Origin: Aminobacterium sp. MB27-C1
Lineage (GTDB): Bacteria > Synergistota > Synergistia > Synergistales > Aminobacteriaceae
Length of the DNA stretch: 64,000 nt
NCBI RefSeq assembly: GCF_030908405.1
Contig: NZ_CP133089.1
Coordinates: forward strand, 930,001 to 994,000
Direction of reading: 5' to 3'
Every line of letters begins with the position of its first letter. Position 1 is the stretch's first letter. The notes beneath the pieces were generated by a model. The model saw only the letters and a program-made list of their open reading frames with translations, made no database searches and was not told the DNA's origin. A program made the position numbers and the translations under genes. This document shows positions 7,491 through 20,985 of the stretch, one piece after another.

Positions 7491-8258
7491 ATGAAAAAGG
7501 TAGTTTTAGGGTTGGTGGTTTTAGCGCTTATTGTAGGAATGATAGGAGTGCCGGCTTATGCTGCTTCAATTATGGACAAGGACACCATAATTGTAGGAAC
7601 ATCTGGTTCATATCCTCCTTTTGAGTTTCATGATAAAACAGGAGCTCTTGTAGGTTTTGATATTGACCTTGCTAATGAAGTTGGGAAACGCCTTGGGAAG
7701 AAAGTTGAATGGGTGGATATGGCTTTTGATGGAGTGATTCCTTCGCTGCTAACGGGAAAAATTAACATGATAGCTGCTGCTTTGAGTATTACTGAGGAGC
7801 GAAGCAAGAAGGTAGCATTTTCTACCCCATATATGGTGAGTTTGAGTGCTTTTGTTCTTCCTGTTGGTAGCGCTGAGATGAAGAGTCTTGAAGATTTTAA
7901 AGGGAAGACAATCGCTGTTCAGCTTGCTACAACGCAAGATGTGTTTGTTTCTGAAATTGAAGGTATAACGGTGAAACGGTTTCCAAAATTGAATGACGCT
8001 GTTCGAGAAGTGGCTCTGAAGAGGGCGGATGCTTCATTTATGGATGAGACTGTTGCTGAAACATATATTAACAGTGACGAATTTAAGGGGCAGCTTGAAA
8101 AATCCTTTACAGTAGAGCTTAAAGGAGCTAAACAGGCACTAGCTGTAAGCAAGGAAGATCCCGCTTTTCTTGATGCTGTAAATGGAGTTCTAAAAGAACT
8201 AGAAGAAGAAGGGTTTATTTCCGAGCTACATAAAAAGTGGAATACTAAAAAGAATTAG
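7491..8258 (+). CDS. Amino-acid ABC transporter substrate-binding protein (family 3)
   Basis: Periplasmic solute-binding protein of the polar amino-acid family. A signal peptide occupies about residues 1-24 (KK start, hydrophobic core, VPAYA-A cleavage site). It has no lipobox Cys, so the mature protein should be free in the periplasm of a diderm. Family motifs include GTSGSYPPFEF, LVGFDIDLANEVGKRLG and a MIAAALSITEERSKKV block. The ATG at 7491 is chosen over the ATG at 7485 because GAGGGGAG is then about 7 nt upstream. No permease or ATPase gene follows, so it is an orphan binding protein. Its position behind argG and the T-box suggests arginine or a related amino acid as ligand (inference). 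Confidence 0.9.
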   Translation: MKKVVLGLVVLALIVGMIGVPAYAASIMDKDTIIVGTSGSYPPFEFHDKTGALVGFDIDLANEVGKRLGKKVEWVDMAFDGVIPSLLTGKINMIAAALSITEERSKKVAFSTPYMVSLSAFVLPVGSAEMKSLEDFKGKTIAVQLATTQDVFVSEIEGITVKRFPKLNDAVREVALKRADASFMDETVAETYINSDEFKGQLEKSFTVELKGAKQALAVSKEDPAFLDAVNGVLKELEEEGFISELHKKWNTKKN

Positions 8259-8409: not shown

Positions 8410-8604
8410 ATGACAGAACCTAAAAAATTGACTCCTCGCGGTAAGGTCCTCATTGCCTTAACAATTATAGTTATTTTTATTTTTGGCTTAACAGCTTTTC
8501 TAGGTCGAGAAAGTATCGGGACTCTATTTCAAGGTAAACTTAGATATTTTTGGGTCGTTATTCTTCTTGCTGTGGGCTATTTTTCTGCTCACGAGACAAA
8601 ATAA
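8410..8604 (+). CDS. Small two-segment membrane protein, unknown function
   Basis: 64 residues: a charged N-terminus (TEPKKLTPRGK), a strongly hydrophobic segment at about 12-30, a polar linker, and a second hydrophobic segment at about 45-60 ending in SAHETK. A promoter-like TTGGCA-17-TACAAT and AAGGAGGA upstream support a real gene. The ribosome-site spacing of about 12 nt is long. Its last 47 bases overlap the 3' end of the convergent hydrolase-like gene, the terminal gene of the polysaccharide cluster. I do not recognise a family. It may have nothing to do with the cluster. Confidence 0.6.
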   Translation: MTEPKKLTPRGKVLIALTIIVIFIFGLTAFLGRESIGTLFQGKLRYFWVVILLAVGYFSAHETK

Positions 8605-10237
8605 AAGGTAGCATTTCGAGGTCTTCTTTATTAAGTAAATAGTACGAATTTAAAAGAGTATATTGTGGAAAGACTGAAAGTGAACTTCTAATAGCTTCCA
8701 ACAGGGGGATTCCCTGACTTTCAGCATTTAAAACAATACCTGTACGGTTTTCATCATAATGCTCATTCAATACACGAACAAGAGAGTTTACTCTCTCTTG
8801 TTGTTCCAGATCAGGGGCATAGGGTTCTCTGACGATATACGGTATTTTGTTCTCCTTAGCTAAGAAAAGAAGGGACTGGCTATCAATTCCAGCTGTTTCT
8901 GCAAGGTGCTGAGAGCTAAGAGAATCAAGCATAATCAAGGCAACTTCTTTATTCTGGAACTGATCTTCTTTCATCAGCTCTTTTAAAAGTTGTGTATATA
9001 TCTGAGTCAAAGTTTCTCTTCTTGTTTGAAGCAATGTTGTTTGATCTTCTTCACTAATATCCTTTCCAGGCAAAAAGAAAGAAGCGGGATCTTTCCTATG
9101 TATTTGTGCGTAGCTTTCTCTGAAGCTTGGATGCATAGGCGTAAAACGTGCGGGGTCGCCAATTCCTTCGTCGGGATGTTCAAAATATAGATCTGCAATA
9201 TAGATACCATCCCAAGAAAAGGAATTGAGGTGTTTCTGCAAAAAACGGATGGTTTCTTTGAAGCAATTTGGGTCTTCAAGAGCCATAAGAGGTCGCCATT
9301 CAATGAAAGCATCGGAGAGCAAGGCTGTCTTTTCCCGCCACTCAGGGTATGTATTCCAAAACTCTTCCGAAACCAATGGAAGTTCAAGCCACGCTTCTAT
9401 TGTCATATTTTGTTTGTGAGCTTCTTCAATAAATTTTTTTGTGAAGTCAACATAATCAGGCGAAGTGTACCAGGCACTTAAAATACATCGTGAAAAGCCT
9501 TCAGAAGCGATTTGCTTCGCAAAAGAAACAGGATCTCGATCATAGAAAAAGCCCCAGTCAATCATGATAGAAAGAGTAGATATATTTTTTTCAGGGGCGT
9601 GTTTTTCGGGCAAAATATTCCATTCATATTGCAAAAGGTCAAAGAAAAAGGGATACACTGTTCCGATGTCAATGGAAGCACCGAGAGGAAGCGCGCTGTA
9701 AACGCAGCGAACATTTTTATACTTAAATTCAACGCAAAGTGGTTCATTGAGAGCTGTCTCGGCCAATATGCGGCTTTGAGACGGGGCGCTAAATACTTCA
9801 AAAGGTAATGATGAAGGAAGTTCTACAACGTTTTTTCTTTTTCCTTGCCAAAGATAGAAAGGTACCAACCCTTTTTTTGATGACCAAGAGAGACCAATTG
9901 TTTGTGACAGCAGGCTAGGTGAGTCTGTTAAAAGTGTTGCAGATTGTTTAATTGTTCTTAGTAACTCTTCGATATCTTTCTGAGACATTTCTTGTGCACT
10001 TTCTCCTGGAACGATGACCAATGAAGCTTGTTGAGCAGTGCGAATGTCTGAAGACATTGTCGCTTTAAAACCATAATTGTTTAAAAGAGAAAGAAGAGAA
10101 GAGTCTGAGGTCTCTTTTGTTGTTAAGACAAAAATATCTGGATTTTGAGTTTCATTGGGTAAAGGGGAAGCATAGACCAATTTCGTTTGAGTAGCCAATA
10201 TAAGGCATAAAAGAAACATGCAGAGCATTTTCTTCAT
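8558..10237 (-). CDS. Secreted TIM-barrel glycoside-hydrolase-like protein, last gene of the polysaccharide cluster
   Basis: About 559 aa. A signal peptide ends near VYA-S. An N-terminal Rossmann/GATase-like domain (about 30-215) is followed by a hydrolase-like barrel: TLSIMIDWGFFYD near 225, then FIEEAHKQNMTIEAWLELP, and WDGIYIADLYFE, where the Asp is at the position expected for an acidic catalytic residue. This arrangement resembles the GHL10/GHL13 families and the C-terminal hydrolase half of PgaB. It probably trims or binds exported polysaccharide in the periplasm (inference). The ATG at 10237 is preferred over an upstream GTG because GAGG then sits 8 nt away. It starts 11 nt after the beta-barrel gene. 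Confidence 0.7.
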   Translation of the reverse strand: MKKMLCMFLLCLILATQTKLVYASPLPNETQNPDIFVLTTKETSDSSLLSLLNNYGFKATMSSDIRTAQQASLVIVPGESAQEMSQKDIEELLRTIKQSATLLTDSPSLLSQTIGLSWSSKKGLVPFYLWQGKRKNVVELPSSLPFEVFSAPSQSRILAETALNEPLCVEFKYKNVRCVYSALPLGASIDIGTVYPFFFDLLQYEWNILPEKHAPEKNISTLSIMIDWGFFYDRDPVSFAKQIASEGFSRCILSAWYTSPDYVDFTKKFIEEAHKQNMTIEAWLELPLVSEEFWNTYPEWREKTALLSDAFIEWRPLMALEDPNCFKETIRFLQKHLNSFSWDGIYIADLYFEHPDEGIGDPARFTPMHPSFRESYAQIHRKDPASFFLPGKDISEEDQTTLLQTRRETLTQIYTQLLKELMKEDQFQNKEVALIMLDSLSSQHLAETAGIDSQSLLFLAKENKIPYIVREPYAPDLEQQERVNSLVRVLNEHYDENRTGIVLNAESQGIPLLEAIRSSLSVFPQYTLLNSYYLLNKEDLEMLPFILSREQKNSPQQEE

Positions 10238-10248
10238 ATCATTCACCT

Positions 10249-11709
10249 CTAAAAGTTTACTTCTGTTCTAAAATGCCACATGTTGTTGTCGAGATAGTCT
10301 GCCTCAGCGTCCCCGTAATGAATATCGTCATAAAGTAGTTCAAAGAAGGCAGAAGGGGTAATATGGTAACGAACGCCGATAGACCAGTTTGTAGTGTCGT
10401 AATCATTTCCGCCTGTGTTCTCATAGCGTATATTGGCGTATCGCTGAAAGGTAGTCCATTTTTCAGAAATATCTTGAACAGTCTTTATAAAAAATACGTT
10501 TGTAGAAAACTCACCTAAGTGAGGGGTAACTTCGAAAGAGTATTTATTCCATGGCTGATGGTCTGTCTTAAAGTTTTTGTCGAAATGTGCGTATTCAATC
10601 CAGAGGTTTGTCAATTTTAATTGTTCTTGTTTTATGTCAAGAATAGCCTTCCATGCCTGAGGAGATTGATCGTCTGGATAGGCCCATTTCTCAAGATCCT
10701 CAACGTACCAAGCTCCCCTAAAAAAGGTGTTGAAATTCAGGGCATATTCGAAATCGAGCCATGCGACTTTCCAGTCAGAAATATCGGGGTTTGTTCTTGA
10801 ATCATTAAAATAATCGTGATAGAGGCCGTTAATAGCTAGGCGGAAGCGCTCATCAAAGCGATGTGTCCATCTAATGCCGTAAAGACTTTGTTCTTCTTCA
10901 GATGTTACTTTGTCATCATGTGCTACAAAGAGAACAAATTGCCCTAATGGCAGATTTTTCGTCAGGTAATATCCAGTATGAATAGTATCTCCCATAAAAG
11001 CATCTGCATCTGTATAAATTTGGGATTCGGCTTCCCAATCGTAGTACCAACGTCCAGTCCTTAATGCGAAATCTCGGGGAAGCGTAAGATCAATCCAATA
11101 ATAATCCCATTTTAAATTTTCCTTGTAATTGGGGTCATTACTATCATAGTGACCTAATCGTCCTACAAATGTTGTTTTGCTGTCGATAATTTTAGAAAAC
11201 CAGAGATAAAAATCAGCAGGACGAAAATCATGGGTTCCTATTCCTGGCCCCATGTCTTCCTTAAATCGTCTACCGTCAAATTGAAAGGTTCCCCAAAATC
11301 TCCAATTTCCAATGTTTTCTTCTAATGTAGTTATCCTTTTGTCTAGAAGGTCGGTTTTAGAAGGAATAGCCGTAAGCTCATATTGGAATTCGCGTAACAG
11401 CTTTTTTAAAGCGATCACTTGGGCAACATCGATTTTTTCGATATCGACATGGTCAATGGTTTTAGCTAACATTTCTGCAACTTCATAACGTCTAAGCAAT
11501 ATGTCTCCCCGTAGGGAATGGTCAGGATAGCCTTTTATAATTCCTGCAGAAGCAAGTTGATGAATGGCATCATATGCCCAATGGCCTTCTGGTAAGTCTG
11601 TAAAAGGGGATTGTGCTTCTGAGGGAGAATACCCCCAGAAGCAAAGAAAAACAATTAACGTTATATATATTTTCTTTTTGTGGTTGCAAAGCATAGAAAT
11701 AATTGTCAT
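10249..11709 (-). CDS. SLH-domain outer-membrane beta-barrel protein (OmpM/porin-like)
   Basis: 486 aa with a signal peptide (hydrophobic core near 15-28), one SLH domain at about 34-85 (FTDLPEGHWAYDAIHQLASAGIIKG-type start, later RRYEVAEMLAK), a coiled-coil-like linker (about 86-130), and a long run of alternating amphipathic strands rich in Trp/Tyr that ends in Phe (EVNF). This is the plan of OmpM-type proteins of Negativicutes and Synergistota, where SLH binds peptidoglycan-linked polymer and tethers the outer membrane. Sitting between BcsB and a hydrolase gene, it probably acts as the exit pore for the polymer, in place of BcsC or PgaA (inference). AGGAG lies 6 nt before the ATG. Confidence 0.8.
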   Translation of the reverse strand: MTIISMLCNHKKKIYITLIVFLCFWGYSPSEAQSPFTDLPEGHWAYDAIHQLASAGIIKGYPDHSLRGDILLRRYEVAEMLAKTIDHVDIEKIDVAQVIALKKLLREFQYELTAIPSKTDLLDKRITTLEENIGNWRFWGTFQFDGRRFKEDMGPGIGTHDFRPADFYLWFSKIIDSKTTFVGRLGHYDSNDPNYKENLKWDYYWIDLTLPRDFALRTGRWYYDWEAESQIYTDADAFMGDTIHTGYYLTKNLPLGQFVLFVAHDDKVTSEEEQSLYGIRWTHRFDERFRLAINGLYHDYFNDSRTNPDISDWKVAWLDFEYALNFNTFFRGAWYVEDLEKWAYPDDQSPQAWKAILDIKQEQLKLTNLWIEYAHFDKNFKTDHQPWNKYSFEVTPHLGEFSTNVFFIKTVQDISEKWTTFQRYANIRYENTGGNDYDTTNWSIGVRYHITPSAFFELLYDDIHYGDAEADYLDNNMWHFRTEVNF

Positions 11710-11752
11710 TTTTATCTCCTATACATCCCCCAGAAATATCCCTTACATGCTC

Positions 11753-14242
11753 TTATTTCCGTCGTATTCGCGCAAAGAGAGTAATGAGGAGTATTGACAT
11801 TATGGCTACTGCTACAAGAGTAAAGATTCCAAGATAGTTTCGATCAGACGAGAAGAGAAGGAGTACCTTTTGCCAGAAAGAAAGAGTAGGCTTTTCTTCT
11901 ATTTTTTCCTCGGTTATAGAGGTGAAGAAAGGAATTGCATCACCAATGGGGGATATAAATGCAACGTCCCCATCGATATTCCAATCTAAAAGGGCCTGTC
12001 TGAAAGATACAGTTGTAGGCATTCTATGATTCCATGTGGAAATAAATTGAATACCTCCATTTTGTTTAGTTAATGAAAGAAGTGCACTTTGGTTTGCAAA
12101 TGCAGGAAGCACTGGAATTTTCTCACCAGAGAGAATTTCTTCTTTTTCCGGATCGTACCCAACAGGAAGAGGAACGCCTTTTTCATGCAATGTCGCTACA
12201 GAAACAAGCAGCACCTGATTCTCTTCATTGTTTCCTGCTGTCCATTCGTCAAATGATTTGATATGAAATACTACTTTCCACGGCAATGTTCTTTGCCATG
12301 CAGAAAGAATAACAGAAAGCGCAGAAAGCTCTTTGCCTGTGGGTTCTTTTTCTGTGTAGATAGTTAGCTCTCTTTTCCCGTCTAATAGGTAAGGCATGTT
12401 GGAAAGTCGTGCTGTCAAAGGTACGATGTCGTGAGGAATATGTAGATACGAGTTTCTATCGATAGTTAGCCATGCACTCTCCATAAAGCGTTTTGTGCAA
12501 TCTGGAATGTCTATATCAAGATAACTTTTCAACTGGAAAGAGATGAAACCATTATTCAATCTCTCTGCCGGAATCGGAACAGATAGACGCCCGTCATTTG
12601 CATTTTCAGGAGTAAGAGCGACTCCTTTCATTGGAACATTGTTTACATCAACTTCAAGAGCTGATTTTTTTCCTTCCAGATTTGGGGCGTGGCGGAACAT
12701 AAGAACTAGAATAGGGTTCCCCTTAATTTTCCAGTTAGGTGGAATCTGATAATTTACTGTCTCTTGATGTTGTAAAATTCCACGAAATACAACATCGCTT
12801 CGTCCTATATCGACTAGACTGACATCTGCAACGTCACGAGGAACGTCTATTGTCTTGGGAAGAGGTAATGACGTTGGAATGGCCGATGCGGAGGCAAGCA
12901 TTTGTTTGCGTGTTTCAGGTGTTAACAATGCTTGTACGGCGAAGCAAAGATCTTCTCCATTCCCAGCTGTAATAAGCATACGTCCGAAGGCTTCTTTATT
13001 CAAAAATACAGAGGCAAAAACATTCCCCTTTTCAAGTTTTTGGGTTGAATCGAATGTATTTAACAGCTCTTGTGTGAAACGGTCTTCATTTCCTAAATAT
13101 AAAATGTGATGTTTCATTGCGATATCTCGAGTTACATCACTCATTGTTACTATTAAGGGGTAAAAATCCTTAAAAGGCACATTGTGAGTGAAACTTGAGA
13201 TAAGGTCTACAGCTGCTTGAATTTCAAGACTTGATGGCGCATCTGGAAGAACAATAAGGGTATTGTCCGTCTGATAGTTTTCTGGTTCAAAGAAAGGAGC
13301 CGGGAATTGATTAAGGGCTAATTCTACAGACGGTACATATTTAAGATGAACCAGGCTTTCTCTATGAATTCGCAGCCAGTTTCCTGGGTTATTTACATTT
13401 GAGCATCTATCTTGATTAGAGTGCAGCATAGCATCTATTGTAAGCGAATTGACTCCCTCTACCATGCTATCGGGATCGAGAGGAATTTTTGAGATCCCTT
13501 TCCATTGGTTAATATCTTTCATACGTAATGTTGTAGTTCTACGTCCGTTAAGTGTTACAGTAAGACTGGAAATATCTGTATCGAGTATTTCAGAGTGGCT
13601 TGTAATAAGCTCCAGATATGATCCTTCCAGAGCTTTCCAGTTTGCAGGGAGGTTGAAGTAAAGGGTTGTTCCGCTGAAGATTATGTGCATGGGAATGTCT
13701 TCTACTGCTAAAACAGTATTAAGACTCTCTCCAGGAGGAAGTACTATTCCAGTATGGTGCTGGAGTACGTGGTTAGCTACTATTGAATCTTTATCAACGG
13801 CTTCATCAGTTATTGAAACTGCTTTTTTTTCTGCTTCGCCTACCTCTGCTATGGGTTGTTTGGGAGGCGTATAGTCTATTTTTCGAATATCTACAACAAT
13901 GCGATCTGGATTCTTAAGGATATAGTGATTTACAGAAAGATTTCGCTCCAAAAGAAAAACCGTAGCTTTGGTTTCTCCAGCTGTTCCTTGAACAGAGAAG
14001 GAACGGGCCGGGGAGGGCAGCTGACCAGTGAAGGGGCGATAAAGTCCATCTGCTATTGTAAGAGTAATCTGATTAGCATTCTGTGTAAAAGAATACGAAG
14101 CTGGTCTGTTCATATCAATGACGAGGCGAATACCTCCTGTATGAATTCCCCAACGGACGTTTGTTATTTCTGCTTTCGCTTGTGGCGTTAAAACGAATAA
14201 AAATACCAATATGAAGCATATAAAAGTTGTTATTCGTTTCAT
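11753..14242 (-). CDS. BcsB-like cellulose synthase regulatory subunit with N-terminal AMIN domain
   Basis: 829 aa: signal peptide, an AMIN-like domain at about 25-122 (ITNVRWGIHTGGIRLVIDM start, DRIVVDIRK end), an acidic linker, a BcsB-type carbohydrate-binding/flavodoxin-like region (about 165-760), and one C-terminal transmembrane helix (about 800-823) followed by RIRRK. In Bcs systems BcsB sits in the periplasm, docks on the synthase through its C-terminal helix and guides the nascent glucan. AMIN domains bind peptidoglycan or cell-envelope structures, so this subunit may anchor the complex to the wall. It lies 2 nt after the GT2 synthase gene, consistent with a synthase-BcsB pair. Confidence 0.82.
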   Translation of the reverse strand: MKRITTFICFILVFLFVLTPQAKAEITNVRWGIHTGGIRLVIDMNRPASYSFTQNANQITLTIADGLYRPFTGQLPSPARSFSVQGTAGETKATVFLLERNLSVNHYILKNPDRIVVDIRKIDYTPPKQPIAEVGEAEKKAVSITDEAVDKDSIVANHVLQHHTGIVLPPGESLNTVLAVEDIPMHIIFSGTTLYFNLPANWKALEGSYLELITSHSEILDTDISSLTVTLNGRRTTTLRMKDINQWKGISKIPLDPDSMVEGVNSLTIDAMLHSNQDRCSNVNNPGNWLRIHRESLVHLKYVPSVELALNQFPAPFFEPENYQTDNTLIVLPDAPSSLEIQAAVDLISSFTHNVPFKDFYPLIVTMSDVTRDIAMKHHILYLGNEDRFTQELLNTFDSTQKLEKGNVFASVFLNKEAFGRMLITAGNGEDLCFAVQALLTPETRKQMLASASAIPTSLPLPKTIDVPRDVADVSLVDIGRSDVVFRGILQHQETVNYQIPPNWKIKGNPILVLMFRHAPNLEGKKSALEVDVNNVPMKGVALTPENANDGRLSVPIPAERLNNGFISFQLKSYLDIDIPDCTKRFMESAWLTIDRNSYLHIPHDIVPLTARLSNMPYLLDGKRELTIYTEKEPTGKELSALSVILSAWQRTLPWKVVFHIKSFDEWTAGNNEENQVLLVSVATLHEKGVPLPVGYDPEKEEILSGEKIPVLPAFANQSALLSLTKQNGGIQFISTWNHRMPTTVSFRQALLDWNIDGDVAFISPIGDAIPFFTSITEEKIEEKPTLSFWQKVLLLFSSDRNYLGIFTLVAVAIMSILLITLFARIRRK

Positions 14243-14244
14243 GT

Positions 14245-15507
14245 TTATCCCGTCCTTTCAGTCTTGTGCCAGAAGGTTTCTTCTTTTTTAAATATTTTTA
14301 TTAATGGGTGGAACAAGGCATTGAACATTACTAAAAGCCAAAGTTGCGTATAAGAAAAATACATTAAAAATCCTAAAAAGATGTTTTTGAGACGATCTTC
14401 TCCTGGTTCCGCCGTAAGTGTTATTGAAAGCTCTACAACAAATAGAAGAGTGGAAAGAGCCCATAGTGCATTGAATGGACCTTGTAGATTAATTCGGCTC
14501 AAACCAGAGATTCCCAAAATAAAGATGCATAAAGAAGCCGTGAGACTCGTTAAGAAAAGAAAGTAGATCATAAAGAGATAAAGCATATCGAAAAAAAGTT
14601 TCCATTGGCCTTCAAACAAAAGAGGAAAGAAGTATTTTTTCAGAACATAAATATTTCCTCGTGCCCATCGGGTTCTTTGTTTAAACCACACTCTCCACAA
14701 CGATGGTTCTTCTTCCCATGTTATAGCGTAAGGAACCATTTTTATTGCTTTTTTACGAAGATAGATACGTATAGAAAGTTCCGTATCTTCAGTAAGAGCT
14801 CGTTCATCCCAGCCTCCAAGAGACTGTATAAGATCTTTCCATATTACAAAGTTTGTTCCTGGAATTGTAGCGAGTTTATATAATTTCCAACGCCCTGCTT
14901 GAGTCGTCCATTGAAAGAAAATGGTTTCAAGATTGATAAAGCGTGTTAATAAATTACGATCTTTATTCCGCGTACGAAATTTACCGATAACAGCACCGAG
15001 ACGTGCTCTATCTTCTATGAGATTGCGCACAAGGTAGAGAAGAGCATTTTTCTCAGGAGTATTGTCAGCATCGTAAACGGCGATAACTTCTCCCTGTGCG
15101 ACCTCTAATCCATAATTTAAAACGGCCGATTTCCCTTTTTTACCTCTGTCTTCAGGAACATCAACGACTTCCACATAAGGGCCAATGCTCCGCGCGGCTT
15201 TTCTGGCTACTTCGCCTGTTCTGTCTGTGGAGTTATCGTTTAGGCAAATAATTTCGAGCAAATGTTTAGGATACTCAAGTCGTCCTATAGCTATAAGTGT
15301 TTTTTCTATAACAAGTTCTTCATTATGTGCTGGAATAAGTATAGAGACATAAGGTAGGTTTTCTGCTGTTGTTGAATCGAAGTGCCATTTTTCTCGTTCT
15401 GCGTGCACAGAATATTTGTAGCCGCTAAATGACAGCACGGCATGGTAAAGAAGCATTGTCCATATAACGATAAGACTGAACAGAAAAACGCCGTCTATTA
15501 GTGTCAT
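14245..15507 (-). CDS. Processive family 2 glycosyltransferase (BcsA/PgaC-like polysaccharide synthase)
   Basis: 420 aa: N-terminal membrane helix (about 6-27), GT-A catalytic domain with SILIPAHNEE, DADN at 146-149 (metal/UDP-sugar), TED at 239-241 (catalytic base motif) and QRTRW at 277-281 (the Q(Q/R)xRW motif of processive synthases), then about three to four C-terminal membrane helices. All catalytic signatures are intact. It is much shorter than BcsA and has no PilZ domain, so c-di-GMP control, if any, must come from another protein. Its start overlaps the upstream stop by 4 nt (ATGA) and bcsB-like follows after 2 nt. The sugar polymerised (glucose, GlcNAc or another) cannot be determined from sequence. 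Confidence 0.88.
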   Translation of the reverse strand: MTLIDGVFLFSLIVIWTMLLYHAVLSFSGYKYSVHAEREKWHFDSTTAENLPYVSILIPAHNEELVIEKTLIAIGRLEYPKHLLEIICLNDNSTDRTGEVARKAARSIGPYVEVVDVPEDRGKKGKSAVLNYGLEVAQGEVIAVYDADNTPEKNALLYLVRNLIEDRARLGAVIGKFRTRNKDRNLLTRFINLETIFFQWTTQAGRWKLYKLATIPGTNFVIWKDLIQSLGGWDERALTEDTELSIRIYLRKKAIKMVPYAITWEEEPSLWRVWFKQRTRWARGNIYVLKKYFFPLLFEGQWKLFFDMLYLFMIYFLFLTSLTASLCIFILGISGLSRINLQGPFNALWALSTLLFVVELSITLTAEPGEDRLKNIFLGFLMYFSYTQLWLLVMFNALFHPLIKIFKKEETFWHKTERTG

Positions 15508-17036
15508 TTAAAAAGATCCTTTCTTCGCCGTCTGGTAAGGCGAACATACACAAAAAGTAAGATGAAAGCGGTTATCCCTCCTGCTATAAGAGGGAACCAT
15601 GCCCAAAGCATTTTTTGTGAATCAGAAGGAGGAACAGGCCATAAATCTGGCACCTCTTTAGGAGTATATAAAAGTTTGGCTCCCATGGTTCCTGTATCGA
15701 CAAAACTGTATCCCATATTTCTAATAAAAGGTATAAGTTCCTTTAAATACTCATCGCCCGCTAAATAAGGATGATAAAAGAAGCAGATAAAGGGATCGCG
15801 CACGATAGATGTAATAATACGCACCTTTTCCTCAATAGTTTTCAATGAAAGAAGCTGGGTTCCTGAAGCTATATATCCAACTTGTTCTGGCAGAACGCTA
15901 AGCCCTGACACTGTTTTCCTTATAATATAGGGAAAAGATTGTGTTGTTTGATATGTTTTATTGTTAACCATAAGCTCTCCAGCAATAGTGTTAAAGTAAT
16001 TTATTAACTCTTCTTGCAATGAAAGAGGAAAGTTATAGTGAGGTGCTTCGAAGTAATTTGGCTGTAACCCTGCCTGATGAAATATCCAAAGTCCGTATTG
16101 CATGCGTTCGTGAAAGTATTTTCTTTCATTGGGTATAGGACGATCTACAGATATATCCCAAAATTCTGAGCCTTCTCCAGATATCCACTTATATTGGTGT
16201 GATGTCCCATGCATAATTATCGTTCCGCCATGCTCAACAGCATACTTTAATGTTTCTAAAAACGGTTTATTATCAACAAGCCGTATTGCATATTTAGATT
16301 CTGGAGTTACAAAAACAGGATAAACCGCCATGGCAAAGGGAACAGAGTTTGATGCGAGGTAATCTATAGTTTGTCGTAATTTTTTTAAGCTTTCTCTAGA
16401 ATATGATGGATTTAAATCTTCAAGACGAACCATTGCCTTCTTTACGTGAGCATGAGGAATCCCCAAAACGTCATGTAAAAGATCAGCAAATATAAGATAG
16501 CTTATTCCGGACGTAGCTACGCCTTGAAAAATCCATGTATTCCCTTTACGTGCAACATAGGGTATAAGCTGCTCTCCGTCATCAAGCGTTGAAAGTACTT
16601 TCCATTCATCTCCCAATTGAAGAGGATACATGCGAAATAACGTTTCTCTGAAACGTATATCCTTATACGTTATATGTGTCGTTGTTATTGGAGTAGTACT
16701 CGTTCCAAGCCAACGATGTGTTCCAACATAACAGGTTGTTTTCTCTCTTGAGCTAAGAACATTTTGAATTTCGATTGATGGAGAATTTGAGTCTATGCTC
16801 GATACATAAAAGATGACATCAGGTTCGAGTAATGTCTTTGCTGTTGTTTTTTGTAGCGTATTCATTGTTATATTTATGTATTCAAAATGGCCTAATAAGT
16901 TGGCAACAAACATAGCACTATCTCTTTCAGGTTCGTCATAAAGAACAGTAACCTGATAAGGCGCCCCATAAAGGGGGAAAGCAAAAAATAGAAAAATCAT
17001 ACATCCCATTAAAAGAAGCAATATATATTTTTTCAT
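15504..17036 (-). CDS. Membrane-anchored DUF2334 polysaccharide-deacetylase-like protein
   Basis: 510 aa: signal/anchor segment 5-23, an N-terminal Rossmann-like region (about 26-195), a DUF2334 deacetylase-type barrel with RLED (Asp207), MHGTSHQY (His276 and His280, the HxxxH metal pair) and a later FFYHPYL, then a C-terminal transmembrane helix (about 475-500) followed by RRRRK. The Asp-His-His triad suggests a working metal-dependent carbohydrate esterase facing the periplasm. It may remove acetyl groups from the polymer made by the adjacent synthase (inference). No clear Shine-Dalgarno precedes the ATG, which lies 20 nt after the degenerate-GGDEF gene. The stop overlaps the GT2 start by 4 nt. 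Confidence 0.78.
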   Translation of the reverse strand: MKKYILLLLMGCMIFLFFAFPLYGAPYQVTVLYDEPERDSAMFVANLLGHFEYINITMNTLQKTTAKTLLEPDVIFYVSSIDSNSPSIEIQNVLSSREKTTCYVGTHRWLGTSTTPITTTHITYKDIRFRETLFRMYPLQLGDEWKVLSTLDDGEQLIPYVARKGNTWIFQGVATSGISYLIFADLLHDVLGIPHAHVKKAMVRLEDLNPSYSRESLKKLRQTIDYLASNSVPFAMAVYPVFVTPESKYAIRLVDNKPFLETLKYAVEHGGTIIMHGTSHQYKWISGEGSEFWDISVDRPIPNERKYFHERMQYGLWIFHQAGLQPNYFEAPHYNFPLSLQEELINYFNTIAGELMVNNKTYQTTQSFPYIIRKTVSGLSVLPEQVGYIASGTQLLSLKTIEEKVRIITSIVRDPFICFFYHPYLAGDEYLKELIPFIRNMGYSFVDTGTMGAKLLYTPKEVPDLWPVPPSDSQKMLWAWFPLIAGGITAFILLFVYVRLTRRRRKDLFK

Positions 17037-17056
17037 ACTTTTATTAATTTCATTTT

Positions 17057-17923
17057 TTAATGATGACTATACTCGTACTCTTTACGTGCTAATGTCATTA
17101 AAGAGACATACTCTTGACTATCTGCCGGACAAACAGCACTTCCTGTTTGTGGTGTCAATCGAATACGCCTAAAGTCATTTTCTCCCAGTGCGATATCTAC
17201 ATATTGTAATTTTTGCCGAATACGTTCTGCGAAAATATCAGTTCCTTCTCTTTCAGTATTAGGCAGCAAAAAGGCGAATTCTGCTTCATCTATTCGGGCA
17301 AGAAGATCTTCTGTTCTTTTACTAGACTTCAATATTTGAGCAACGTTACGTATAACGAGTCCTTTTGCTCTTTCTCCGTGCACATCTGTTAATTCTTTTA
17401 GAAAGGCGACTTTAATAAGCAGAATAGAGAAGTATCCCCCATATCTTTTTTGTCTGGCCAACTCTTCATTCATACGGAAGGCAAAACGTTTTGATGTTTC
17501 AAGACCGGTTTGTTCATCAATGACTACAAGAGAATCAATTTGTGTAGAGAGAATTGTCAGCCGTTCAGTTATATCTGAAATAATTTTCTCTAAGCCACCA
17601 CCCACATATCCACTAAAGGGAACGATAAGAAGCCAAAAGAGACGAGAAGCATCAACAGGTGTTTGATTCTGCCTCCATAAGGCAAAACCAACCTTAAAAC
17701 TCCCATAAAGGAAGAGGATGACAAGAGAAAATATGAGCGAGGTGGTACTGCCACAGATCGATCCGATGAAAAGAGCAGTTGCTGCAAGGAGAGTCATGAC
17801 ATAATCTTCAAAGGGGATGGCATAGTTGATGAAAAACCACGTCATTACGACAGAAAAACCAATAAAGATCGCAAACGCAAAGAGCAGTAAACGCTTCTTG
17901 TATATCTGGGTTTGCCCTGTCAA
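17057..17923 (-). CDS. Membrane protein with degenerate GGDEF domain and intact c-di-GMP I-site
   Basis: 288 aa. Three to four membrane helices lie in the first 110 residues, then a coiled-coil-like stretch (about 110-135) and a GGDEF fold (about 135-285). The active-site loop, which should read GGDEF, is DEAEF at 212-216, so the substrate-binding glycines and the metal-binding acid are lost. The inhibitory-site motif RxxD is kept as RTED at 203-206 with correct spacing. The protein is therefore predicted to bind c-di-GMP and not to make it, like PelD, although no GAF domain is seen. The start is probably TTG at 17923, about 8 nt after a GGGGGGA run. It would supply the c-di-GMP sensing that the synthase lacks. 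Confidence 0.78.
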   Translation of the reverse strand: MTGQTQIYKKRLLLFAFAIFIGFSVVMTWFFINYAIPFEDYVMTLLAATALFIGSICGSTTSLIFSLVILFLYGSFKVGFALWRQNQTPVDASRLFWLLIVPFSGYVGGGLEKIISDITERLTILSTQIDSLVVIDEQTGLETSKRFAFRMNEELARQKRYGGYFSILLIKVAFLKELTDVHGERAKGLVIRNVAQILKSSKRTEDLLARIDEAEFAFLLPNTEREGTDIFAERIRQKLQYVDIALGENDFRRIRLTPQTGSAVCPADSQEYVSLMTLARKEYEYSHH

Positions 17924-17977
17924 GGGATATCCCCCCTTATATTTTAAAAAATATTCTTAACATATTATTAAATTATT

Positions 17978-19054
17978 TTACATGGATATTTTTACTTTGT
18001 AAAGCAATTCCCTGGCTATGAGAGCAATAAGGTTATCAAAAGCCCAGACAGTTTGCGTTTTGTCTTCTTGTTCGTATCCTAAGAGACCTTTATATTTGCC
18101 TTCATCAATAATGAAATCGCTCAATTTAGAATATGCTTTTTCGGCAGCTTCATCAAAACCGCAGTCTTTAAAAAAAAGAGAGGCAAGGGCATAAACAGTA
18201 ATATTTTCATTGCCGCTTTTATCTGTAATTTTCCCAGTGGAGAGAAGTTCGATAGCGTATTTTCTCCCATATGATGTAGGAATTATTCCAATTGACGATA
18301 AGAAGTGTAGGTGAAGCATTGTATTTATGAGGTTTTCCTCATTATAAGTAAATTCTTTTTTTTCAAAGGAATATCCCCACGCATTTTTCTCTTCAAGAAA
18401 AAGCCCTGTTATGACGAAACCAGATGTTTTGACAAGTATAGGAAGCCAATTTTCATCACGTTTTGCTAGCATCTTCATAGCGCGCAAATCTGCGTATGAG
18501 AGAGTCAATTCACTTGTATTTTTAGTGATTGCAAGAGGTTTAAACCAGGATTGTTTCCATGAAGCTCCGTCGAGTAAGGTGTCATTTTCTGTGTTGTATA
18601 TTCGTATTTTTTCAGCCAAAGTTATAAGAGGTTTTTTAAAGTTTTCTTTTGGCCATAGTTCATCTGCAAGAAGCAGGGCGTAACATGTTCGGAGGTCATC
18701 TATACTTGCGTTTGATGTCGCTTTCTTTCCTGTAGATGAGAGTTCCCACGCCAGAAGTCCACTGGGAGAAACGAAATATTTCTGCATAAGCGAAACTTGT
18801 GTTTTAAATCGTTTCAGGTCTCCACGCAGAGCAGCAAGTTCCATTTCAAGGGAATGAGTTTCTGAAAGAAAGGTTTTCTTGTCGTTGCGCGTATAGAGAA
18901 GCCCATTAGGGGCGCGAAGAACACGTTCCAGGCCTATTTCAACAGCAGGCCCCCAGTCGGGTGATGGCAGCACAATATTATTTGCATAGGCTGGATTACA
19001 TAAAAACATAGAAAGGCATATACAATTCAAGATTAACATTTTAAGTCTTTTCAT
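17978..19054 (-). CDS. Secreted GH8-like (BcsZ-type) alpha/alpha-barrel hydrolase, divergent
   Basis: About 358 aa with a signal peptide ending near NPAYA. The region LSETHSLEMELAALRGD aligns by eye with the SEGQGYGM segment of GH8 enzymes and keeps the acid Glu (about residue 65). SGLLAWEL and NASIDDLRTCYALLLADELW (about 115-134) correspond to the LLAW and ASDxDxxxAxxLLxA signature, but with the order of the first acidic residue changed (SIDD for SDAD). BcsZ is the GH8 endoglucanase of Bcs clusters, so this is a likely functional counterpart at the head of the operon. The ATG at 19054 is preferred over GTG at 19066 because AAGGTGAG lies about 8 nt before it. Activity is uncertain. Confidence 0.65.
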   Translation of the reverse strand: MKRLKMLILNCICLSMFLCNPAYANNIVLPSPDWGPAVEIGLERVLRAPNGLLYTRNDKKTFLSETHSLEMELAALRGDLKRFKTQVSLMQKYFVSPSGLLAWELSSTGKKATSNASIDDLRTCYALLLADELWPKENFKKPLITLAEKIRIYNTENDTLLDGASWKQSWFKPLAITKNTSELTLSYADLRAMKMLAKRDENWLPILVKTSGFVITGLFLEEKNAWGYSFEKKEFTYNEENLINTMLHLHFLSSIGIIPTSYGRKYAIELLSTGKITDKSGNENITVYALASLFFKDCGFDEAAEKAYSKLSDFIIDEGKYKGLLGYEQEDKTQTVWAFDNLIALIARELLYKVKISM

Positions 19055-19098
19055 AGGGGTTCTCACCTTATAAAAAAGATTTAGAAATAACCATTGAT

Positions 19099-19139
19099 CA
19101 TATCATAACTCAGGAGAAGAACTCCTGAGTTATGATATG
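19099..19139. repeat. 18-bp perfect palindrome before the polysaccharide cluster
   Basis: Arms 19099-19116 (CATATCATAACTCAGGAG) and 19122-19139 are exact reverse complements around a 5-nt loop. It lies between the pur operon stop and the first polysaccharide gene, both on the minus strand. No T-run follows directly on either strand, so it is not a textbook terminator. It may end pur transcripts by another route, protect mRNA ends, or be an operator. Confidence 0.8.
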
Positions 19140-19158: not shown

Positions 19159-20973
19159 CTAATTTTCTGCGAATGCATCTGAAGGGGCAACTGGCAAATC
19201 AACAATACTTTCTCTGCCCTGTTGGATTTTTTGTGCTTCCTCTTTCATATATAAAGAAAGCTTATTTTTTACGTGGTCATCTTGGCGGGCTAAAATGCGA
19301 ATAGCCATGAGAGAAGCATTTTTAGCGCCATCTATTCCAGTCGCTGCTACAGGTACACCAGGAGGCATTTGGGCTATGGAAAGAAGGGCATCTAATCCGC
19401 CTAGGGTTCCAGCTGAGATAGGAACACCTATAACTGGCAGAAGCGTATGGGCAGCAAGTACTCCAGGGAGCGCTGCTGATAATCCAGCCATAGCAATAAG
19501 AACCTCAATACCTCTTTTTTCTGCCAGAGATGCGTATTTTGCAGCATCTTCAGGCGTTCTGTGAGCAGAAGCGATGGTTACTTCAAAGGGAATTTCAAAT
19601 TGTTTAAGGATGTCTGCCGCTTTATGGGCTGCAGGCAGATCTGATTTCGATCCTAACATAATTCCAACGCGGGGTGTTTGCGCATTCATGCTGATCACTC
19701 CTCGTCTGGCTTTAGCCGTTATATCGTTACGATAATGGGCTCCTTCGAAATGTATCTTGGCAACACTGTCATACGACCGTTTCAAAGCCTCATCTAAAGT
19801 ATCACCAATACCTATTACATTCAGAACTCTTCCTCCAGCAGTAACTATTTCTCCTTTTTCGTTCAGAGCTGTTCCAGCATGGAAGACCATAACGTTATCT
19901 GTCTTGGCGACCTTATCCAGCCCCGTTATGGGTAGGCCTTTTGTGTATGGACCAGGATAGCCGCCTGAAGACATGACAACATCAACAGCCCACTTTGCAG
20001 AAACTATTTCAGGCAATGTATCAAGTTCTTCATTGCAAGAGGCATTTATAAGCTCTGCGAAATCTACGCTAAGAAGCGGTAAAATGACTTCCGCTTCAGG
20101 ATCACCGAAACGAACGTTGTATTCTACAACCCGAGGAGATCCATTATTATCTATCATAAGCCCAAAATAGAGAATACCGCAGAACGGAATTTTTTCAGAT
20201 TGAAGCCCCTTAAAGGTAGGAAGAATGATCTTTTCTTCAATTTTCTGAAGCAATTCTTTTCCCACCCATGGTACTGGAGAATACGCACCCATTCCGCCGG
20301 TATTGGGACCTTCATCGTTATCAAAGACCCTTTTATGGTCCTGGCTGCAAGGCAGAATGCGGTAACTTTTCCCATCGCTGATACAAAGTACCGTTAATTC
20401 AAGGCCGGGCATAAAGTCTTCTACAACGATCTTTTCTCCTGATACTCCAAGTTCTTTTTTCACAAGGAGATTGGAGACTGTTGTCAAAGCATCCTCTTTT
20501 GTCTTTAAGACAAATGCGCCCTTACCTGCTGCCAGACCATCTGCTTTAACAACAAATGGGGCAGTGCGTTTATCCAGGGCTTTCTGGGCTTCTTCTACAG
20601 TAGTACAAACATCAAAAGGTGCTGTAGGAATAGCGTTGCGCAACATGAACTGTTTAGCAAAGATTTTGCTTCCTTCCAGTTGAGCACCTTTAGAACCGGG
20701 ACCAAAGACGGTAAATCCATTTTCTCTTAAAACATCTGCGGCCCCATTGACCAACGGAACCTCGGGGCCAATGATGATCACATCAGGATGAAGTGAATTT
20801 GCTAAAGAGAGCAGGTCATTGTTATTTGACACGTCAACTTTATGCAAGGTGGCAAGATTTGACATCCCTGCATTTCCTGGAGCGACGTGTATCGTCTCTA
20901 CATGTTGCGATTGTGATAGAGCCCACACAAGAGCATGTTCCCGGCCGCCACTTCCTATAACGAGAAAGTTCAT
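19159..20973 (-). CDS. purD-purE: Phosphoribosylamine-glycine ligase fused to N5-CAIR mutase (PurD-PurE)
   Basis: 604 aa. Residues 1-430 are PurD (GAR synthetase, ATP-grasp): GSGGREHAL, VVKADGLAAGKGAF, NTGGMGAYSP and VEYNVRFGDPEAE. Residues about 435-600 are PurE: GIMLGSKSDLP, IASAHRTPEDA, AMAGLSAALPGV and VPISAGTLGGLDALL. The ATG at 20973 has AAGGAG 8 nt upstream. Inside the frame an ATG at 19689 precedes the PurE part and carries its own GAGGAG at 19698-19703 (8-nt spacing), so free PurE (176 aa) may also be made. PurD and PurE catalyse steps 2 and 6 of purine synthesis. No purK is seen nearby. It is the last gene of the pur operon. Confidence 0.93.
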   Translation of the reverse strand: MNFLVIGSGGREHALVWALSQSQHVETIHVAPGNAGMSNLATLHKVDVSNNNDLLSLANSLHPDVIIIGPEVPLVNGAADVLRENGFTVFGPGSKGAQLEGSKIFAKQFMLRNAIPTAPFDVCTTVEEAQKALDKRTAPFVVKADGLAAGKGAFVLKTKEDALTTVSNLLVKKELGVSGEKIVVEDFMPGLELTVLCISDGKSYRILPCSQDHKRVFDNDEGPNTGGMGAYSPVPWVGKELLQKIEEKIILPTFKGLQSEKIPFCGILYFGLMIDNNGSPRVVEYNVRFGDPEAEVILPLLSVDFAELINASCNEELDTLPEIVSAKWAVDVVMSSGGYPGPYTKGLPITGLDKVAKTDNVMVFHAGTALNEKGEIVTAGGRVLNVIGIGDTLDEALKRSYDSVAKIHFEGAHYRNDITAKARRGVISMNAQTPRVGIMLGSKSDLPAAHKAADILKQFEIPFEVTIASAHRTPEDAAKYASLAEKRGIEVLIAMAGLSAALPGVLAAHTLLPVIGVPISAGTLGGLDALLSIAQMPPGVPVAATGIDGAKNASLMAIRILARQDDHVKNKLSLYMKEEAQKIQQGRESIVDLPVAPSDAFAEN

Positions 20974-20985
20974 AGAGCTCACTCC

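Follow-up and report, generated by a model that had tools for sequence, protein, structure and literature searches.

A predicted Yda/Pss-type exopolysaccharide operon with two additional envelope genes in the diderm Aminobacterium sp. MB27-C1

The operon described here lies in a 64,000-nucleotide stretch of the genome of Aminobacterium sp. MB27-C1 (Synergistota; NCBI RefSeq assembly GCF_030908405.1, contig NZ_CP133089.1, positions 930,001 to 994,000), hereafter the window. Seven closely spaced open reading frames (ORFs), all on the minus strand, occupy positions 8558-19054 (Table 1), as an earlier note on this DNA had reported; in the order of transcription, the intergenic gaps are 54, 20, -4, 2, 43 and 2 bp, and the GC content is 38.9% for the operon and 41.5% for the window. 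For the first gene, the ATG at 19054 is a likelier start than the automatically assigned GTG at 19066, because the latter falls within the ribosome-binding-like sequence AAGGTGAG. The domains that the note had named are present for BcsB, AMIN, GT2 (PF13641), DUF2334, GGDEF and SLH, while its GH8-like hydrolase is better described as GH126; its functional reading, an operon for exopolysaccharide (EPS) synthesis and secretion, is supported.

Table 1. Features of the operon and its upstream border (window coordinates)
Feature	Position	Strand	Basis
Secreted GH126 (alpha/alpha)6 glycosidase, PssZ/YdaJ-like	17978..19054 (automatic start 19066)	-	phmmer, conserved catalytic residues
Degenerate-GGDEF membrane protein, PssE/YdaK-like c-di-GMP receptor (predicted)	17057..17923	-	PF00990, intact I-site RTED, blastp PssE
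DUF2334 protein, YdaL/PssB-like: GATase-like N-domain, CE4-like deacetylase domain and C-terminal membrane anchor	15504..17036	-	PF10096, motifs, model
Processive GT2 synthase, PssC/YdaM/PgrC-like; DADN, TED, QRTRW	14245..15507	-	PF13641, PssC identity
AMIN-BcsB protein with C-terminal membrane anchor, PssD-like periplasmic synthase partner	11753..14242	-	PF03170, AMIN, PssD profile match
SLH-domain outer-membrane beta-barrel (porin-like), candidate outer-membrane exit (inferred)	10249..11709	-	SLH, Porin_O_P
Secreted GATase-like + TIM-barrel protein, PgaB-hydrolase-like (GH153 fold)	8558..10246	-	phmmer, model, Foldseek
18-pair perfect palindrome CATATCATAACTCAGGAG..CTCCTGAGTTATGATATG, between purDE and operon	19099..19139	.	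terminator-like on + strand only

Over its full length (421 columns), the GT2 synthase is 47.5% identical to PssC of Listeria monocytogenes (E 6e-127); its identity to other Synergistota GT2s is 69% and 64-65%. The L. monocytogenes genome used for the comparison was picked via a 100% match to the PssZ sequence, and a named, annotated record from Listeria gives the locus in the same order, namely membrane protein, DUF2334, GT2, BcsB and GGDEF; in the published account of pssA-E, PssD is described as orthologous to BcsB, and PssE as a receptor with an I-site and a degenerate GGDEF domain (PMC4125290). The BcsB protein of the window matches PF03170 (5e-47) and AMIN (1.7e-5), and a profile built from it recovers Listeria PssD at 7e-166; in the same way, the DUF2334 protein reaches PssB at 2e-42 and the GGDEF protein reaches PssE at 6e-70 (2e-14 by blastp). 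A PssC-like GT2, a PssD-type BcsB protein, a degenerate GGDEF protein with its I-site, a DUF2334 protein and a GH126 glycosidase are all present, and the first five genes are, as judged from their sequences, a Yda/Pss-type exopolysaccharide machine, that is, a member of an already named class. The earlier note had seen a mosaic that it could not map to any such class; this part does not stand, as the operon corresponds to the Yda/Pss system dependent on cyclic di-GMP (c-di-GMP), a diderm version of which has been published as the Acinetobacter PGR locus. A categorically new, unnamed system is ruled out by the matches to Listeria pss, Bacillus subtilis yda and Acinetobacter PGR. A literature search returned nothing on DUF2334 together with BcsB, nor on Synergistetes together with BcsB.

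The operon does contain parts resembling the Bcs, Pga and Pel systems, as the earlier note remarked: a BcsB profile match, a GT2 nearest to PgaC/IcaA, a TIM barrel nearest to the PgaB hydrolase and a DUF2334 protein nearest to PelA. A cellulose (Bcs) system that has diverged, with BcsB acting beside a BcsA deprived of its PilZ domain, could account for the Pfam match of the BcsB protein and for the 71 bits that the CelA model gives to the GT2; yet the cut-off of that model is 699, all NCBIfam BcsB equivalog models fall far under theirs, and the GT2 is the homologue of PssC, whose product is a polymer of N-acetylmannosamine (ManNAc) and galactose. Moreover, the operon has no PilZ-bearing BcsA, no BcsC exporter and no GH8 BcsZ; a domain search of the seven proteins gave neither PilZ nor TPR domains, as the note had said, and the single PilZ found in the genome lies 0.48 Mb away. 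A cellulose system is on this evidence highly improbable. The same can nearly be said of a poly-N-acetylglucosamine (Pga/Ica) system that recruited a BcsB protein, which we regard as very unlikely: the PgaC_IcaA model is the best NCBIfam match of the GT2 and the TIM barrel folds like the PgaB hydrolase, but the score of 149 bits is far below the cut-off of 422, the seven proteins include no PgaA or PgaD family match and resemble PgaB by fold only, and the GT2 groups with Pss-set loci, several of which carry a UDP-N-acetylglucosamine (UDP-GlcNAc) 2-epimerase. As for Pel, no family match to PelF, PelG or PelD was found among the seven proteins, and PelA appears only as the nearest fold of the DUF2334 protein.

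The GGDEF protein matches PF00990 at 1e-19 and keeps the I-site RTED, with IDEAEF standing where GGDEF would be; in an alignment of the operon GGDEF proteins with Listeria PssE, the RxxD I-site is invariant and the GGDEF motif lost throughout. The protein is thus a predicted c-di-GMP receptor, like PssE and YdaK. Others have shown that PssE binds c-di-GMP with a dissociation constant of 0.79 uM (PMC4125290), that YdaK also binds it and that the pss and yda loci yield EPS; in B. subtilis, this EPS requires the RxxD residues of YdaK (PMC5422440) and also a diguanylate cyclase (PMC5422440, PMC13274460). The Aminobacterium genome has twelve GGDEF places, eight of which score strongly for the domain, and these could serve as the source of c-di-GMP for the operon. 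In some lactobacilli (L086 4609, L094 4777, L116 1138), a protein with an intact GGDEF/GGEEF motif lies near a GH126 gene, an arrangement that resembles Listeria dgcAB-pssZ.

The first protein owes its placement in GH126 to its sole solved relatives, 3REN (phmmer 1.7e-14) and 6R2M, the L. monocytogenes PssZ (1.7e-13). E69, D123, R126 and Y191, the residues published as catalytic for the family, are conserved in 29-30 of 29-30 relatives, and Y292 in 25 of 29. A GH8/BcsZ identity was rejected in favour of GH126, the GH8 model giving 13.4 bits against a cut-off of 24. The DUF2334 protein (PF10096, 5e-43) has its catalytic motifs intact (RLEDLNP, HGTSHQY, EAPHYN and FFYHPYL), and its structural model (predicted local distance difference test, pLDDT, 93) comprises a GATase-like domain and a CE4-like deacetylase domain; the top Foldseek match is PelA (9CGY, 8e-10), and CE4 deacetylases are matched with Z up to 19.7. 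Two Synergistota loci (L034 4834-6687 and L035 13384-15006) encode, next to an intact DUF2334 protein, another in which most of the catalytic motifs are gone.

Compared from descriptions, ydaJKLMN of B. subtilis shares with the window the five-gene set and its order, an RxxD receptor and the lack of both PilZ and a TPR exporter; we take YdaL to be the DUF2334 protein (a family detected in B. subtilis), YdaM the GT2 and YdaN the BcsB-like protein. Unlike Aminobacterium, B. subtilis is a monoderm, and its locus has neither an SLH porin nor a PgaB-like TIM protein. The published order runs from a hydrolase through a c-di-GMP receptor to three EPS genes (PMC5422440, PMC13274460). Listeria pssA-E together with pssZ offers homologues of PssB, PssC, PssD, PssE and PssZ, but there PssZ is encoded elsewhere, with dgcAB, the GGDEF gene comes last, and PssB, in the same alignment as the window protein, has lost most of the deacetylase motifs that the latter keeps. 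The Clostridioides difficile GT2/BcsB locus (PMC7710045) has GGDEF, DUF2334, GT2 and BcsB in the same order as the window; in place of GH126, the SLH porin and the PgaB-like protein, it has GH113 and a WecB-type epimerase. Among diderms, Acinetobacter baumannii has a GT2 43% identical to that of the window, in a locus that also encodes a degenerate GGDEF-like protein, BcsB, a DUF4434 TIM protein, a UDP-GlcNAc 2-epimerase and a TPR-barrel protein; this content agrees with the Acinetobacter PGR locus, for which the 2025 paper describes a PgaB-C-terminus-like PgrE, a porin PgrG and a predicted ManNAc polymer (PMC12507263). PGR thus shares with the window a degenerate GGDEF protein (PgrA), GT2, BcsB, the PgaB-like PgrE and an outer-membrane porin; in contrast, PgrG combines TPR and barrel rather than SLH and barrel, PgrE is DUF4434-like, the epimerase (PgrF) lies within the locus, GH126 is absent and the catalytic part of DUF2334 is missing. 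Neither the TPR + barrel protein nor the epimerase of PGR is found in the window operon, where the barrel is of the SLH type. Finally, fusions of DUF2334, GATase and TIM-barrel domains (L065, L066, L071, L075 and others) are encoded directly upstream of a Pss-type GT2 in Bacteroidota, Ignavibacteria and Acidobacteria, sometimes with a UDP-GlcNAc 2-epimerase; their GT2, DUF2334 and TIM-barrel domains are homologous to those of the window, but they form one protein of about 1310 aa with no BcsB and no GGDEF receptor nearby. For these fusion loci, neither a published name nor an outer-membrane exporter was found.

Whether the gene order recurs had been set as a check beforehand, and it does: the five-gene set is found in both Synergistota and Bacillota. 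The GT2 alignment A1 yielded 80 loci; as these were chosen by GT2 similarity, the Bacillota count is that of a non-random sample, in which the order DUF2334-GT2-BcsB appears in about 38 Bacillota loci (C. difficile, Paenibacillus, Tumebacillus and lactobacilli among them), usually with a GGDEF gene and often with GH126. A close BcsB protein occurs in 6 of 188 Synergistota genomes; in this phylum, G109 and G186 have the set GH126-GGDEF-DUF2334-GT2-BcsB, and in G005 the set is rearranged, with no GGDEF gene in the stretch examined. Since set and order recur across phyla, the grouping goes beyond chance. In the GT2 tree, the Synergistota sequences are a clade of their own (100/99), and so, separately, is the diderm DUF2334-TIM group (100/98). 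Among the loci read, the core is most common in monoderms; the earlier description of the machine as diderm-specific therefore fits its last two genes only. One Synergistota family (L039-L044) has more distant BcsB-like proteins, the other members of the profile set being absent from the 7-20 kb read.

The two genes that follow the core encode a TIM-barrel protein and an SLH porin. With phmmer, the former matches the C-terminal half of the DUF2334-TIM fusions (3e-39) and a Dethiobacter protein (2e-54), and its model (pLDDT 79) is closest to the E. coli PgaB hydrolase domain (Foldseek 8e-11; Z 21.0, root-mean-square deviation 3.9, 294 aligned). Its catalysis is not assured, because the Glu conserved in the AELYFE motif of its relatives is an Asp in the window protein. 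The SLH porin (SLH 2e-7, Porin_O_P 2e-4, a porin-like C-terminus) has a paralogue in the source genome (G000 505779-507254) and is a candidate outer-membrane exit for the polymer; this role is supported, without being proven, by Acinetobacter, another diderm, in which the core is likewise extended by a TIM protein and an outer-membrane barrel.

In the proposed mechanism, c-di-GMP made elsewhere in the cell would be bound at the I-site of the membrane protein with the degenerate GGDEF domain, and this would switch on the processive GT2. The synthase would polymerise an N-acetylhexosamine, most likely ManNAc supplied by a UDP-GlcNAc 2-epimerase, and thread the chain across the inner membrane to its BcsB-like partner; the periplasmic DUF2334 enzyme would take off some of the N-acetyl groups, the GH126 and PgaB-like TIM-barrel proteins would clip or guide the chain, and the polymer would exit by way of an outer-membrane barrel, the SLH porin of the operon being the candidate for this part. 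The product is thus most likely an N-acetylhexosamine polymer that is trimmed and de-N-acetylated once it is beyond the inner membrane. ManNAc is its likely sugar because the Listeria Pss polymer consists of ManNAc with galactose, nine diderm loci as well as those of C. difficile and Acinetobacter have a UDP-GlcNAc 2-epimerase gene next to the GT2 gene or not far from it, the polymer proposed for C. difficile is rich in ManNAc and deacetylated in part (PMC7710045), and the source genome has three such epimerase genes, all outside the operon.

With this mechanism, the operon very probably encodes an exopolysaccharide synthase of the Yda/Pss type, activated by c-di-GMP and adapted to a diderm envelope. 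Several observations weigh against such a reading. The multi-transmembrane PssA of Listeria has no counterpart among the ORFs of the operon, and blastp of the window proteins gives no match to it; no epimerase gene lies in the operon; and the B. subtilis Yda polymer binds a lectin specific for alpha-galactose/N-acetylgalactosamine, which makes ManNAc less than certain as the sugar. Other TIM hydrolases match the TIM-barrel model at Z 18-19, so that the fold alone leaves its activity unfixed. Of 188 Synergistota genomes, 154 have the SLH porin family, often as multiple copies, and neither the porin nor the TIM-barrel gene accompanies the operon copies of G109, G186 and G005. These last facts would also suit an account in which the two genes are unrelated passengers and the five-gene core acts alone, its polymer leaving through another outer-membrane protein; we hold this to be possible but doubtful, since both genes share the strand of the core and follow it at spacings of 43 and 2 bp, other diderms have, next to the same GT2, a homologue of the TIM-barrel protein as part of a DUF2334 fusion, and Acinetobacter PGR appends equivalents. 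A role of the SLH porin as an exporter subunit conserved throughout the operon family is not supported, as no homologue occurs in any other operon locus although the family is phylum-wide. As for the adapted synthase itself, we tentatively suggest, as a rather speculative extension, that this Synergistota lineage may have rebuilt a Yda/Pss core for two membranes by means of a PgaB-like periplasmic hydrolase and a peptidoglycan-tethered SLH porin exit that dispenses with a TPR scaffold. To our knowledge, an exporter of this type belongs to no described synthase-dependent polysaccharide system.

The operon is flanked by purDE (19159) on one side and by a convergent gene for an amino-acid-binding protein (ending at 8258) on the other. 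The palindrome at the purDE border has no second copy in the window, and its minus strand lacks a strong T-run. In a congener (G030), these flanks are only about 0.37 kb apart. At the same site, between purDE and argG, another congener (G031; L147 6555-12569) carries a different EPS-like cassette made up of a TolC-like + TIM protein (739 aa), an HlyD protein, a TackOD1 + degenerate GGDEF protein and a GT2 (444 aa). Cassettes for c-di-GMP-linked EPS seem to have a hot spot at this site next to purDE, and both gain of the operon at this hot spot and repeated loss fit its history. The single 607-aa ORF at 19159-20982 corresponds to two frames in G030 (purD, then a purE-like gene), and its match in G031 contains an internal stop.

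The core of the operon was thus already known; what is new is the addition of two further genes in this diderm lineage. With this finding, the c-di-GMP-controlled Yda/Pss class of monoderms reaches a further diderm phylum, and one synthase family ties together the monoderm Yda/Pss systems, Acinetobacter PGR and the unnamed fusions of Bacteroidota and Ignavibacteria. It also names a concrete candidate for the passage of such a polymer across an outer membrane where no TPR exporter is present, and makes deacetylated ManNAc-type polymers worth seeking in Synergistota.

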